Position numbers and translations under genes: made by a program | Origin: a virus | Virus record (IMG/VR): IMGVR_UViG_3300044999_000018 | Coordinates: 1 to 46,182 of that record | DNA length: 46,182 nucleotides | Direction: 5' to 3' (one strand) | Notes under the pieces: model-generated | What the model was told of the DNA's origin: nothing | Databases searched by the model: none | What the model saw: only the letters and a program-made list of their open reading frames with translations | In this document: one piece after another, positions 24,807 through 38,212 of the stretch | Layout: each line of letters begins with the position of its first letter | Position numbering within the stretch: the first letter of the stretch is position 1

Positions 24807-24911
24807 TGGTGGCGCGACCCGGATTCGAACCGGGAACCTTGGATCTCAGGGGACTTGGCCGCGCGCTGGCCGCTACCCCACACCGTGCTCTATCCGTTGA
24901 GCTACCGCACC
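24807..24911 (-). tRNA. tRNA-like gene with oversized anticodon region
   Basis: Minus-strand fold: acceptor GGTGCGG pairs with TCGCGCC (7 bp, two wobble pairs), then TA, D-arm GCTC-AACGGATA-GAGC, T-arm CCCGG-TTCGAAT-CCGGG, and an encoded 3' ACCA. Between the D-arm and T-arm lie 51 nt where about 22 are normal. They contain a nested hairpin (GGGG...GGCC-loop-GGCC...CCCC), and no clean 5-bp anticodon stem with a 7-nt T33 loop was found, so the isotype is undetermined. It could be a defective tRNA, one carrying an insertion, or a tRNA mimic. Confidence 0.6.
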
Positions 24912-25015
24912 GTTGTGACTGACAGTTATACGTTACTGACTAGTTCGGGTCTCAGCCCGCGAATCCGGGGCCTTCCGGGCTGATTGCCGCCTCACCTGGT
25001 CACTGAGCGTTGATG
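24912..25015 (-). promoter_or_regulatory. intergenic control region: tRNA promoter box and hairpin
   Basis: A -10-like TATAAC (24930-24925, minus) sits about 14 nt before the tRNA 5' end; no convincing -35 box was seen. Further upstream, arms CAGCCCG (24953-24959) and CGGGCTG (24976-24982) form a 7-bp hairpin just after the stop of the gene at 25016. It probably ends the early leftward operon before the late region. Confidence 0.5.
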
Positions 25016-31381: not shown

Positions 31382-31581
31382 GTCGGGTCCTCCGTTCGGG
31401 CGGCTTGGATGCGCTGGAAGTGACTGGTCCGGCCGTGCAGGTGCTGGCCGTCGGTGAGCGGGTTCACGCAGTACGCGTCCCGCTCCGCGCCGCATTTCGG
31501 GCACTGGACGGCGAGGGACTCGTCCTGGGCGGCCAGGTCCTCGGCCACCGGTGCGGTGACGGAATGCAGACGGCGGGTCAT
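31378..31581 (-). CDS. small zinc-finger protein, 67 aa
   Basis: ATG at 31581. CPKCGAERDAYCVNPLTDGQHLHGR: C-x2-C-x7-C plus His, a compact motif common in actinophages, where it often precedes HGxR...F. Overlaps the HNH gene's stop. Confidence 0.68.
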   Translation of the reverse strand: MTRRLHSVTAPVAEDLAAQDESLAVQCPKCGAERDAYCVNPLTDGQHLHGRTSHFQRIQAARTEDPT

Positions 31582-32084
31582 CGCAGGCGTCTTTCATCAG
31601 CCACCGTGCGGAACTCCCGGCAACAGCCGCAGTAGATGTCGATCGGGTCCGCGTTGGGAGGCGCGGTGCCGCACACCGGGCATGCCGGGTAGTAGCGGCA
31701 ACGCGGCAGTCCGTGGAAGTGCGCTCGCCGGATGCACAGGTCGCAGGCGAAGGTGACCGGTATGGCGGGGAACTCCGCGCCTGTCTTGAAGTTGCTCCGA
31801 CGCTGGTTGCACTCCTTGCACAGCAACCGCAGGTTCGTGGTGTCGTCAGCGCCGCCAGCCGACCACGGGATGATGTGGTCGATTTCCCACGGACCCTTGC
31901 GGGCGCCGCACATCTGGCAGTGCGCGTCGTCGCGGCGATAGACGAGGTGACGGACGATGCGCGGAATCGGCGGACGTTCACCAGTGCGGACGATCGGCCA
32001 GCGTTCGAGCGTGTCGGTCTCGACGGCCAACGCTTCGAGCATGCCGAGGAACGCGTCCGCCGTGACGGACGGGTGGTCGTTCAT
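31578..32084 (-). CDS. HNH endonuclease
   Basis: 168 aa, ATG at 32084. Core residues ~48-95: YRRDDAHCQMCGARKGPWEIDHIIPWSAGG, then NLRLLCKECNQRR, the His-x-Asn zinc-anchored McrA-type HNH. C-terminal half has further Cys pairs (CDLCIRR, CPVCGTAPPN, YCGCCRE). Located just downstream of the replication gene; could be a homing enzyme or a DNA-processing nuclease. Confidence 0.9.
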   Translation of the reverse strand: MNDHPSVTADAFLGMLEALAVETDTLERWPIVRTGERPPIPRIVRHLVYRRDDAHCQMCGARKGPWEIDHIIPWSAGGADDTTNLRLLCKECNQRRSNFKTGAEFPAIPVTFACDLCIRRAHFHGLPRCRYYPACPVCGTAPPNADPIDIYCGCCREFRTVADERRLR

Positions 32085-32734
32085 GGGACTTCACCTCGCA
32101 TTGCGGCTCGGACCAGCGCACTGCCGCGCTGGTTGCGTTCTTCGGCATTCGGGTCGTGATCGCAGATCGTTCGGCCGCGGTAGCCGCGGTCGTCGCACAT
32201 GTCGCAGGCCGAGATGGCGAGGTCGCGGCCGCGGGCTTTTTCTCGTGTGTCGTCGGATGGTGACGTTGGGTTGTCGTTTGGGGTGGGAGCGCGGCGCGAG
32301 AATTCGCGCTCCCCGCCCCCTCCTCTCTTTAGAGAGGGGGCGGGACGGGACGGGGCAGCGTTAGTGCCCCCGTTACTAACAGCGTGACTACCGCCGTTAC
32401 GGTGTGACTCACGCCACTTTCGCTGTCGTTCGGCCGACTTCTCGCGTTCCTCGAGGACCTTCTCCTTGCTCGGCTGGAACTCCAGATAGTCCTTGATCTG
32501 CCAGCCGCCAGGGCGTTCGTGCCACAGTTGCCGGTCAACGAGTTGGGCAGCGAAGCGTGCCGGCGTTCGCACCCGCGCACACACGAGTTCGAGATCATCT
32601 TCGGGCACGAATCCGTCAGTGAGGTTGCGTGCGCACCAGAAGATCGCCGAGACGTGCAGGCGGAATGCAGCATCCGACAGGCCATCTACCTTCCTGTTGA
32701 TCGGGAATGTGTCATCGAATCGAACCCATGGCAT
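32081..32734 (-). CDS. replication initiator-type protein (winged-helix N terminus)
   Basis: 217 aa from the ATG at 32734 (GGAAGGGA upstream); the longer frame is shadow. Residues 1-90 (MPWVRFDDTFPINRKVDGLSDAAFRLHVS..., LTDGFVPEDD, HERPGGWQIKDYLEFQPSKE) follow the layout of phage replisome-organiser N-terminal domains. Residues ~105-165 are low-complexity linker. The end has CDMC (177-180) and CDH (191-193), a possible zinc site. The linker codons carry the repeat cluster at 32285-32409. Confidence 0.78.
   Translation of the reverse strand: MPWVRFDDTFPINRKVDGLSDAAFRLHVSAIFWCARNLTDGFVPEDDLELVCARVRTPARFAAQLVDRQLWHERPGGWQIKDYLEFQPSKEKVLEEREKSAERQRKWRESHRNGGSHAVSNGGTNAAPSRPAPSLKRGGGGEREFSRRAPTPNDNPTSPSDDTREKARGRDLAISACDMCDDRGYRGRTICDHDPNAEERNQRGSALVRAAMRGEVP
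32285..32409. repeat. cluster of inverted and direct repeats inside replication gene (candidate origin)
   Basis: GGGAGCGCG (32285-32293)/CGCGCTCCC (32305-32313) is a perfect 9-bp inverted repeat. CCCGCCCC (32312-32319) with CTCTC (32323-32327) pairs with GAGAG (32332-32336) and GGGGCGGG (32337-32344), a 13-bp hairpin with a 3-nt bulge. GTTAGT (32360-32365)/ACTAAC (32375-32380) is a third. GTTAC...GTGACT occurs twice (32372-32389 and 32396-32409). Confidence 0.55.
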
Positions 32735-32795: not shown

Positions 32796-33239
32796 TCACT
32801 CCTTCTGCGGCCAAGGTGAGGCACGGCGTTCCACGAGCGCCTTCCGCTGGTGCCGGTCCAGGCCGCCCCAGATCCCCCACGGCTCATCAGCAGCCAGCGC
32901 GTACCGCAGGCACTGAAGAGCGACCGGACACCGGCCACACACCGCCTTGGCCGCATCGGTGTCGTTGGCTTCGGTGCGCGTGTGGGCGAACCAGCGGTCC
33001 TTGTCCGGCTCCGTCCGGCAGGCCCCGAACTGCTTCCACTCCTCCGACTGGCGGACCGGCCGCGGCACGCTCGGTTTCGGGTCGGTCCGCGGCCGACGGC
33101 GAGCCGCCCGGGCACGGAGGGAGCAGGCGATGGAGCAGAACTTCCGGGCCTTCCAGTCGTTGCTGGCGGTGTTCTTGCGGCGCCGGAAGACCTCGCCGCA
33201 ACCGGCGCAGGTCTTCGCGCCCACCAGTGGCGTGCTCAC
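32796..33239 (-). CDS. WhiB-family [4Fe-4S] protein with N-terminal zinc finger
   Basis: 147 aa, GTG at 33239. Residues 11-39: CAGC...FCSIAC (C11, C14, C35, C39), a zinc finger not normal in Wbl proteins. Residues ~68-145 are the Wbl domain: C74, C101, C104, C110 for the cluster, and GIWGG (122-126) with the basic tail HQRKALVERR. Wbl proteins bind sigma-A and redirect transcription; phage Wbls can block host WhiB2. Upstream of the replication gene. Confidence 0.9.
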   Translation of the reverse strand: MSTPLVGAKTCAGCGEVFRRRKNTASNDWKARKFCSIACSLRARAARRRPRTDPKPSVPRPVRQSEEWKQFGACRTEPDKDRWFAHTRTEANDTDAAKAVCGRCPVALQCLRYALAADEPWGIWGGLDRHQRKALVERRASPWPQKE

Positions 33240-36023: not shown

Positions 36024-36196
36024 GACGACCGCCTCTTCCGCTCGTGCCGCCTCCATCGCTCACGCCGCACGAACGCGAGCTCCCACTGGTACGCCCGCTG
36101 GTCCTTGCGGGTCCACCTGCGCAGAGGCCAGAGCAGCGGCCAGGTGAGCCGTGAGAGCCAGCCGCGGATGCGACGGTGACGGCGGTCGGGGATCAT
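36020..36196 (-). CDS. small basic hypothetical, 58 aa
   Basis: ATG at 36196, coupled to the exonuclease stop. Very rich in Arg and Trp (RRHRRIRGWLSRLTWPLLWPLRRW, then RERWRRHERKRR). Could bind nucleic acid or lie on the membrane. Unknown. Confidence 0.5.
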   Translation of the reverse strand: MIPDRRHRRIRGWLSRLTWPLLWPLRRWTRKDQRAYQWELAFVRRERWRRHERKRRSS

Positions 36197-37182
36197 GGGG
36201 TCACCGCCGGCTTGGCGACGAACCCGAGCTTGATCTCCGTCGTCTTGTTCATCGGTGGCTGCACGCCAGTCTTGGCGTACTCGGCCCTCACCGCGTCGGT
36301 ATTCAGTCGGGAGACGGGGCTGACCGTCCACTGGAGAGCCTTCGAGTAGCCCACGTCGACCGGGTCGGACTTGCCCGTGGTGTTCGGCCGGATCGCGTCC
36401 AGCGCGCCCTTGGCTTCCTTCTCCAGCCGCTCGGCCGCCTTCTTCAGCCCGCGTGCCTTGGCGAGCTGCTTGGCCCACTTCAGCGCGTCCGGGTCGTCGA
36501 CGAACAGCACGGTGAGCGGGTCGCGGTTGGGGACCGCGTCACCCCAGCACGGCGTCCGGAACGGGCAGCCTTGACAGAACGCGGAGTCCGGCGCGTAGTC
36601 CCGGTTCAGGAACTCCGGGTCCCCGACGTCGCGGATGTTCTTCACCCACGCCAGCGCTTCCTTGACCGCGGTCGGGTCGAACGGCAACGGGACCGGGTGG
36701 GTGTTGCCGGTGTCGCGGGCGATGTAGTCGATGACCACCCGCCGAACCGGTCGGCCCTCCTGGATGAGGGCGGCGGCGTACAGCATGATCTGCCAGCGGT
36801 GCGCGCGGTCCGCGCCGTGGATCTTGATGTAGTCGATGCGGCGCTGGGTGGTGGTTTTGGTGTCGTCCACTTCGGCGTTGACCGAGTCGTACCGGTCAAG
36901 GTGTCCGAGGATGCCGGCGAACCGAACTTCGTGCTCGACGAGGTCGTCGGCGGGGATCTCGCCGGCCGCCTGCATCTCCCGGAACACCTGCTCCACCGCG
37001 CCATGGATGGCGGTGCCCATCACGGCCTGGATGGAGCCGGACGAGTCGACCGGGTCCGCGCCGGCCAGCCGGTAGCCGGCGCGGCGCTGGCAGCCGCCAA
37101 CCTCGGACATGCCCATCTCCCGCTGCTGGGACCGCGCACGGCGGCGATCCCACGCGAGCAGCAGGTCAGCGGTCGTGGTCAT
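36193..37182 (-). CDS. Cas4-like PD-(D/E)XK exonuclease with Fe-S cysteines
   Basis: 329 aa, ATG at 37182. Nuclease residues: H60 in GTAIHGAVE, D95 in GHLDRYD, D107-x-K109 in DDTK, and Q131/Y135 in the QIMLY motif (RecB-family nuclease motifs). Cysteines C31, C203, C206 and C212 sit as in Cas4/AddB Fe-S nucleases. The C-terminal ~100 residues add a charged extension. Directly after RecT with overlapping codons, so it is likely the 5'-3' resection partner of a RecT recombination pair. Confidence 0.85.
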   Translation of the reverse strand: MTTTADLLLAWDRRRARSQQREMGMSEVGGCQRRAGYRLAGADPVDSSGSIQAVMGTAIHGAVEQVFREMQAAGEIPADDLVEHEVRFAGILGHLDRYDSVNAEVDDTKTTTQRRIDYIKIHGADRAHRWQIMLYAAALIQEGRPVRRVVIDYIARDTGNTHPVPLPFDPTAVKEALAWVKNIRDVGDPEFLNRDYAPDSAFCQGCPFRTPCWGDAVPNRDPLTVLFVDDPDALKWAKQLAKARGLKKAAERLEKEAKGALDAIRPNTTGKSDPVDVGYSKALQWTVSPVSRLNTDAVRAEYAKTGVQPPMNKTTEIKLGFVAKPAVTP

Positions 37183-38030
37183 TCGGCGTCAGCACCTTCG
37201 GCGAACAGGCGCAGCGCTTCCTCGTCCGGCTCGACCGTCTCGCCGCCGAGGTGTTCCTTGGCCAGTTCCGCGACGGCTTCGGCGATCACGGCGTCGTCCT
37301 GCTCGGGCGCCGGCGGCACGGTGGCTGGCTGGTCACGCTCGGCCGCGACCTGTGCGAGGGTTGGCCGGTCGTCGTCGGCCGCCGAGTCCATCTCGCCCTC
37401 GATCGCGAACCCCATCCGGACCTCGGGGCAGATGAAGTCGGCGCAGAAGCCGGCCGCGCGCCACAGCAGCATCCGTTTGGTCCAGGTCTCCCACGGCAGC
37501 GGCTCACCGCTCTTGGACCGGGCGTAGGGCTTGCCTTCCTTCAGGCGCACCAGGTTCGCCGCGATCGCGTCGTCGATCGTGAAGGTCTCGCTGTGTTCCT
37601 CGCCGCTGTCGCCCCGCACGATCGTGACAGTGCAGCGGCTCTCGTCGTGATCTCCCTCGTACGGGTGGTCGGCGCCACGGTGTTCCTGCTTGCTCAGGAA
37701 GCAGATCGTGCACGGCACATACGCCTTGTGGCCTGCTTCACGGACTTTCGCCAGGAGAAGCTTCCCGGCCATCTGCGGGCGTCCCTTGACGACCGAGATT
37801 GTCTGGAGGGCGATGACGTGGGGAACGTTGAGCTGCTGGCCATAGAGGATGGTCAGGAACACGTTGGCGGGCTTGCCGCGCAAGTCCTGCGGCAGGATGT
37901 CCGCCTGTGCCAGCGCGACCGCGAGCCGCCATGCCTGGTCGAGGTCGTCGAGTTGGCCGGTCAGACGTACGGGTACCTTTGCCTGCTGCGCGGGCTGAGT
38001 GGCCGGCAGGTTGGGCGTGGTGTCGGTCAT
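37179..38030 (-). CDS. recT: RecT-family single-strand annealing protein
   Basis: 283 aa from the ATG at 38030, overlapping the preceding stop; the upstream frame is shadow. RecT signs: DLDQAWRLAVALAQADILPQDLRGKPANVFLTILYGQQLN near residues 29-65 (segments), KGRPQMAGKLLLAKVREAGH, WETWTKRMLLWRAAGFCADFICPEV. C-terminal ~70 residues are acidic and disordered (VPPAPEQDD...). Anneals single strands for recombination-based replication or repair. Partner nuclease lies immediately downstream. Confidence 0.9.
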   Translation of the reverse strand: MTDTTPNLPATQPAQQAKVPVRLTGQLDDLDQAWRLAVALAQADILPQDLRGKPANVFLTILYGQQLNVPHVIALQTISVVKGRPQMAGKLLLAKVREAGHKAYVPCTICFLSKQEHRGADHPYEGDHDESRCTVTIVRGDSGEEHSETFTIDDAIAANLVRLKEGKPYARSKSGEPLPWETWTKRMLLWRAAGFCADFICPEVRMGFAIEGEMDSAADDDRPTLAQVAAERDQPATVPPAPEQDDAVIAEAVAELAKEHLGGETVEPDEEALRLFAEGADAE

Positions 38031-38212
38031 CAGAATGCCCATCCGTCGTCCGGGAAGCCCACGGGCTCCGCGGCGGGAAAAGCGGTGAAGGGAGCGCCGA
38101 GGCCGTGCAGTAGGCACGTCTCGGACGGCTCGTATTCGGCCGGCAGTGGATCGGGCCACCCGCGTCCCTCATAGACGCACAGGCAGGTGCAGCCGTCAGG
38201 TAGGCCGGTCAC
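38030..38212 (-). CDS. hypothetical, 60 aa
   Basis: GTG at 38212 overlapping the upstream TGA. TGLPDGCTCLCVYEGRG with a CTCLC cluster, then SETCLLHGLGAP. Possible metal site. Overlaps the recT start. Confidence 0.58.
   Translation of the reverse strand: MTGLPDGCTCLCVYEGRGWPDPLPAEYEPSETCLLHGLGAPFTAFPAAEPVGFPDDGWAF

Follow-up and report, generated by a model that had tools for sequence, protein, structure and literature searches.

The window, a stretch of 46,182 nucleotides of viral DNA analysed over its whole length, carries on its minus strand, at positions 32081-32734, a gene for a protein of 217 amino acids (P0001). PHROG profile 2447, 'replication initiation protein', matched residues 1-163, the N-terminal part of this protein, with an E value of 1e-36, and profile 3926 and others matched as well; the match to 2447 bears out the view of an initial annotation of this DNA that the gene is a replication initiator. 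Relatives of the protein occur in 237 phage records, several of which are labelled 'replication initiation protein' or 'RepA-like replication initiator', and the nearest reaches 75% at best over the N-terminal domain, too distant for a classical comparison of synonymous sites. An AlphaFold2 prediction run with 24 aligned relatives gave an N-terminal winged-helix domain at residues 1-86 (32477-32734, minus strand), with helices at residues 21-37, 45-51 and 58-67, strands at 71-74 and 77-80, and a pLDDT of about 95 from residue 21. It is followed by a basic helix at residues 90-113 (32396-32467, minus strand; pLDDT about 95 across residues 91-110), the core of which, SAERQRKWR at residues 100-108, is encoded at 32411-32437 on the minus strand. 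The linker after the basic helix was modelled with low confidence and is predicted to be disordered. The closest predicted viral folds were those of actinophage initiators, replisome organizers and DUF1376 or Lin1244-like phage proteins, and a fold search of the PDB with the initiator returned nothing better than E 0.05, its matches being assorted winged helices. An HNH endonuclease gene (31578-32084, minus strand; PF01844, 2e-15) begins at the stop codon of the initiator gene, and many relatives have HNH genes flanking the initiator; a WhiB-family regulator is encoded just upstream (32796-33239, minus strand; PF02467, 2.5e-18), and farther away, at 36193-38159 on the minus strand, a Cas4/PD-(D/E)XK exonuclease adjoins a RecT-like annealing protein.

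The initial annotation had described four repeat features in the linker of this gene as a candidate origin, and we found all four, overlapping codons 108-150. The first is a perfect 9-bp inverted repeat at 32285-32313, with arms GGGAGCGCG (32285-32293) and CGCGCTCCC (32305-32313) around an 11-nt loop. The second, a bulged G+C hairpin at 32312-32344, has 11-bp perfect outer arms (32312-32322 and 32334-32344) and continues inward beyond the bulge; its DNA folding z score was -5.15, and 0 of 200 shuffles were equally stable. GTTAGT at 32360 and ACTAAC at 32375 make up the third, and the fourth consists of two bipartite GTTAC...GTGACT repeats, which are present at 32372/32384 and 32396/32404 but are not identical, since their spacings are 12 and 8. 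What the annotation had missed is a G-quadruplex motif, GGGGGCGGGACGGGACGGGG, at 32336-32355 on the plus strand, where the gene strand is C-rich. It is one of only two such motifs in the window and encloses a pentanucleotide tract, with a unit run CGGGACGGGACGGG at 32341-32354, which the bulged hairpin adjoins and overlaps.

A position weight matrix (PWM) for GTTASTAAC, built from nine relatives with the window excluded, was scored over 46,174 positions of the window, and four of its 14 best matches in 46 kb fell within 32360-32412, that is, within 53 bp of the linker. They are GTTACTAAC at 32372-32380 (rank 1, a perfect match to the consensus of the relatives and its sole exact copy in the window), GTGACTCAC at 32404-32412 (rank 4), GTGACTACC at 32384-32392 (rank 7) and GTTAGTGCC at 32360-32368 (rank 14); a half-site, GTTAC, at 32396-32400 continues the 12-bp register, which was taken from the relatives and the matrix. 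By these ranks the array is particular to this place in the genome, and its iterons, which are degenerate, are putative binding sites. Matches ranking 5 and 2, GTGACTGAC and GTTACTGAC, lie 17 bp apart at 24915-24940, and may represent either another site for the initiator or arm sites of an integrase. Beside them, at 24810-24911 on the minus strand, is a tRNA-like sequence of about 102 nt (Rfam RF00005, 40 bits; none by ARAGORN), possibly an interrupted tRNA or an attachment-site copy, apart from which an Rfam scan of the window gave nothing.

About 70 related phages and prophages were compared, and those read as DNA comprised 18 loci on viral and bacterial contigs, seven more, actinobacterial prophages and 21 named phages. 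In about 55 related actinophage and prophage initiators we found an array of short palindromic repeats at the same place, often spaced by 12 bp, so that the absence from relatives that would have spoken against the candidate origin was not seen. The order of the element in nearly all relatives is basic helix, palindromic repeats, a tandem tract of 4-6-nt units and a hairpin. Besides prophages, the bearers of the element are phages of Gordonia, Mycobacterium, Microbacterium, Arthrobacter, Propionibacterium, Rhodococcus and Streptomyces, and the repeat type differs by group, being GTTASTAAC, GACGCGTC, GTGAC/GTCAC, GTTCG/CGAAC, GAAGC/GCTTC, GCTCAAGCA, CGATCGG or GCATTGC. Among the relatives examined, VWB, SF3 and the HNH-fused group L068/L069/L076 had no such array. 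In eight relatives (L025, L047, L065, Anatole L095, Sonali L085, Barkley26 L086, TripleJ L094 and BIM BV-113 L099) the initiator frame ends ahead of the repeats, which continue past the stop codon as non-coding DNA. L025 stops just ahead of its array, so that its GAAGC/GCTTC repeats and CCCGTACCCGTACCCG are non-coding; in Anatole, Sonali, Barkley26, TripleJ and BIM BV-113 the initiator has 121-138 amino acids, and repeats are found in the gap of about 190-210 nt behind its gene. Two other sequences were noticed in some relatives. TTATCCACA or TGTGGATAA, which we take to be DnaA box-like, occurs in or near the linkers of L010, L011 and L014 and also downstream in L009 and L025, and a TTACGTA(A/G)- or TACGTAG-like sequence lies just past the tandem tract in Barkley26, Anatole, Sonali and Malibo L080.

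The tandem run of the window is short (14 nt) and, taken alone, has a background p of 0.043. Across the family, however, 49 of 67 members carry a tandem tract at the 5% background level, against about three expected, and its period is mostly 5 nt, no multiple of a codon. Of 57 members, 36 have a G-quadruplex motif on the template strand and two have one on the coding strand, compared with 4.3% of background windows. Since 21 of the 57 have no strict G-quadruplex, we rejected it as a universal feature and regard the short tandem tract as the shared one; some of the members without the motif carry GACA, GAAA, CTGGT or CCATTAA tracts instead, the CCATTAA repeats replacing the G+C tract in two relatives from lower-GC hosts. 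We found no AT-rich unwinding element beside the iterons of the window, where the neighbouring tract consists of G+C-only repeats.

Palindromic sites would also suit a regulator, and the non-coding arrays sit between the initiator gene and the next one, so the repeats might be an operator by which the initiator or another regulator controls its own or downstream transcription, with the origin elsewhere. We consider this unlikely. The sites are within the gene or beyond its 3' end rather than at its promoter; scans for promoters and terminators detected neither a sigma-70-like promoter nor a terminator at the element, and in the matrix scan the motif formed no cluster on the upstream side of the gene. 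Moreover, an operator would have no need of a tandem tract plus hairpin. An additional autoregulatory role may nevertheless accompany what we regard, from the sequence comparisons, as very probably the replication origin of the phage, placed inside its initiator gene.

That the linker is simply a disordered Asn/Ser/Thr-rich peptide, whose own repeats give the appearance of repeats in the DNA, seems to us very improbable. Some observations accord with it, namely the low AlphaFold confidence of the linker, repeated peptides such as DASxDAS in some linkers, and the generic 6-mer repeat content of the window linker alone, which did not exceed that of synonymous recodings (p = 0.23). However, the cluster of four among the top 14 matrix matches was never equalled when the gene was recoded synonymously 3000 times, and family-wide the linker repeats exceeded synonymous recodings (p<0.01) in 26 of 48 genes, compared with 3 of 48 for N-domain controls. 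Linker codons also run against the gene's own preference (0.82 falling to 0.63; Wilcoxon 5e-13), and 5-nt periods are foreign to a peptide repeat. The strongest argument is that relatives with a shorter gene still keep the repeats as non-coding DNA, which contradicts a peptide-level cause and points to the DNA, not the peptide, as the functional object. Both the recoding computations and the non-coding copies thus place the constraint on the DNA, and in the best explanation linker peptides such as SNGVSN and DASQDAS follow the DNA as a disordered by-product.

We found that the repeat type varies together with the basic helix. L005, L015, L025 and L026 have similar N-domains (similarity about 0.74-0.87) but different basic helices and different iteron cassettes, the repeats being of the GTTAC type in L015 and L026, GACGCGTC in L005 and GAAGC/GCTTC in L025, which indicates that helix and iterons move as a cassette. 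Computed over 57 members, iteron similarity correlated with helix similarity when the N-domain was held constant (partial r 0.39, permutation p<=0.0005) and not with N-domain similarity once the helix was held constant (0.036, p 0.09); with the C-terminal part as a linkage control, the standardised weights in 38 members were 0.31 for the helix, 0.13 for the N-domain and 0.07 for the C-terminus. When helix cores are aligned in the frame x(-3)..R(0)-Q..x(+4)-R, an aromatic residue at +4 with a non-basic one at -3 goes with GTTAS half-sites (13/13), a small residue at +4 with GTGAS half-sites (9/9) and Lys at -3 with GACGCGTC (17/19), and RM helices pair with GTTCG; the contrast of aromatic, 13/13, with small, 0/9, has a p of 2e-6 in training and new loci combined. 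Rules drawn from the first set agreed with all 14 later-fetched loci to which they were applied (4/4, 2/2 and 8/8), although the loci as a whole are related and the later ones come mostly from a single bacterial family. Circular counting is avoided because the counted DNA begins past the codons of the helix core, but part of the covariation could be co-inheritance, as helix and iterons are neighbours in the DNA. Judged by this covariation, the repeat type follows the basic helix just after the winged-helix domain and not the winged-helix domain itself, and the pattern suggests which initiator residues read which DNA repeat. The expectation of the initial annotation that the N terminus of the initiator reads the repeats thus holds in a narrower form, with the basic helix at residues 90-113 as the likely reader rather than the whole N-terminal domain. 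Although similar N-domains with different cassettes might also point to a recombination site for exchanging initiator modules (or the hairpins to mRNA signals), such a role has very little to recommend it, for a swap site should stay constant across cassettes, whereas the repeats vary and correspond to the protein helix with which they move.

The reading of the linker as an origin bound by its own initiator is in our judgement highly likely, and the proposal of the initial annotation that a candidate origin lies inside a replication gene gains support from the recurrence of the element, the codon bias, the survival of the repeats as non-coding DNA and the match to PHROG 2447. The accompanying expectation of a GC-skew minimum was not borne out, as the cumulative minimum lies at the right end of the fragment with only a local minimum near 30 kb; GC skew is weak and uninformative evidence here because the ends of the fragment are unknown and gene strands are mixed. 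In the mechanism that we propose, the initiator, once made, would bind the array, either within its own gene or on freshly replicated copies. Its basic helix (residues 90-113) would contact the palindromic iterons GTTASTAAC or GTGASTCAC in 12-bp register at 32360-32412, with the initiator probably binding as dimers and cooperatively over the array. By analogy with lambda and SPP1, the bound complex would then open the adjoining C-rich/G-rich tandem tract and hairpin (32285-32355), or keep their strands open, and helicase and primase would be loaded there, the tract and hairpin substituting for the AT-rich element of lambda. The Microbacterium phage Phonegingi encodes a helicase loader and DnaB directly after the initiator, and in the Arthrobacter phage ArV2 DnaB comes next. 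Since no helicase or loader gene was recognised beside the initiator of the window, we presume that host DnaB serves.

Mapped origins for most actinobacteriophages were not found in the literature searched, nor was a prior description of this element, subscription papers being outside the coverage of the search. If our reading is true, simple inspection will locate the origin in hundreds of annotated genomes, in which it now goes unnoticed as the linker of a 'hypothetical protein' or 'RepA-like initiator'. The helix-to-repeat rules would allow initiator specificity to be predicted, and tested by changing single residues, and could give compatible plasmid vectors for actinobacteria; they would also pose the problem of how an origin opens when it has no AT-rich DNA.

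Several known systems invite comparison. Lambda O is a winged-helix-type initiator with linked specificity. In lambda and the lambdoids, as in the window, origin iterons lie within the linker-coding part of the initiator gene; there is, however, no detectable sequence relationship, and in the window family the repeat type tracks the basic helix after the winged helix, with a 5-nt tandem and G-quadruplex tract. The likeness to the origin in lambda gene O drawn by the initial annotation therefore extends to the linker position inside the initiator gene but not to an AT-rich stretch, the window element having none. The lambda origin itself sits within gene O (PMC6022878), and in SPP1 (PMC6316719) oriL lies in gene 38, gp38 binds direct repeats within its own gene, and genes for a helicase loader and DnaB follow. 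The window element is of the same kind in its location inside an initiator coding sequence, with repeats that its product would bind; SPP1 differs in its AT-rich unwinding element and Firmicute host, and no family-wide residue code is described for it in the text consulted. The nearest predicted viral folds, those of replisome organizers and DUF1376 or Lin1244-like proteins, indicate kinship by predicted fold only. In cluster A mycobacteriophages the origin is presumed to lie 'within or immediately adjacent to repA' (PMC7157519), and the RepA of that cluster, a plasmid-type (pMSC262-like) initiator of 320-350 amino acids, is set beside the 217-residue protein by description. The helix rules recall eukaryotic bZIP proteins, among which AP-1, with NxxAAxxCR, reads TGACTCA and Yap1, with NxxAQxxFR, prefers 5'-TT ends as in TTACTAA (PMC8450079): the pairing of phage NxxRQxx[WFY]R with GTTASTAAC and of AxxRQxx[ASG]R with GTGAC/GTCAC resembles the way in which fungal Yap1 and AP-1 select TTACTAA or TGACTCA. 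Unlike a bZIP protein, the initiator belongs to a prokaryotic virus and has its helix after a winged helix, with residues beyond it that are predicted to be disordered and form no C-terminal leucine zipper; with no match to bZIP profiles in Pfam or solved bZIP chains in the PDB at E values up to 10, we rejected bZIP homology or membership. We tentatively entertain, with rather more doubt than belief, the broader idea that a convergent bZIP-like helix on a winged helix reads an in-gene origin by AP-1/Yap1 residue-to-base logic, that helix and iterons form an exchangeable cassette, and that strand opening in these G+C-rich origins takes place at a short tandem G-quadruplex tract, not at an AT-rich stretch. 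Origins within initiator genes are already known from lambda and SPP1; the present element is set apart by having no AT-rich part, a family-wide tandem tract, many interchangeable repeat types and a pairing of helix to repeat.
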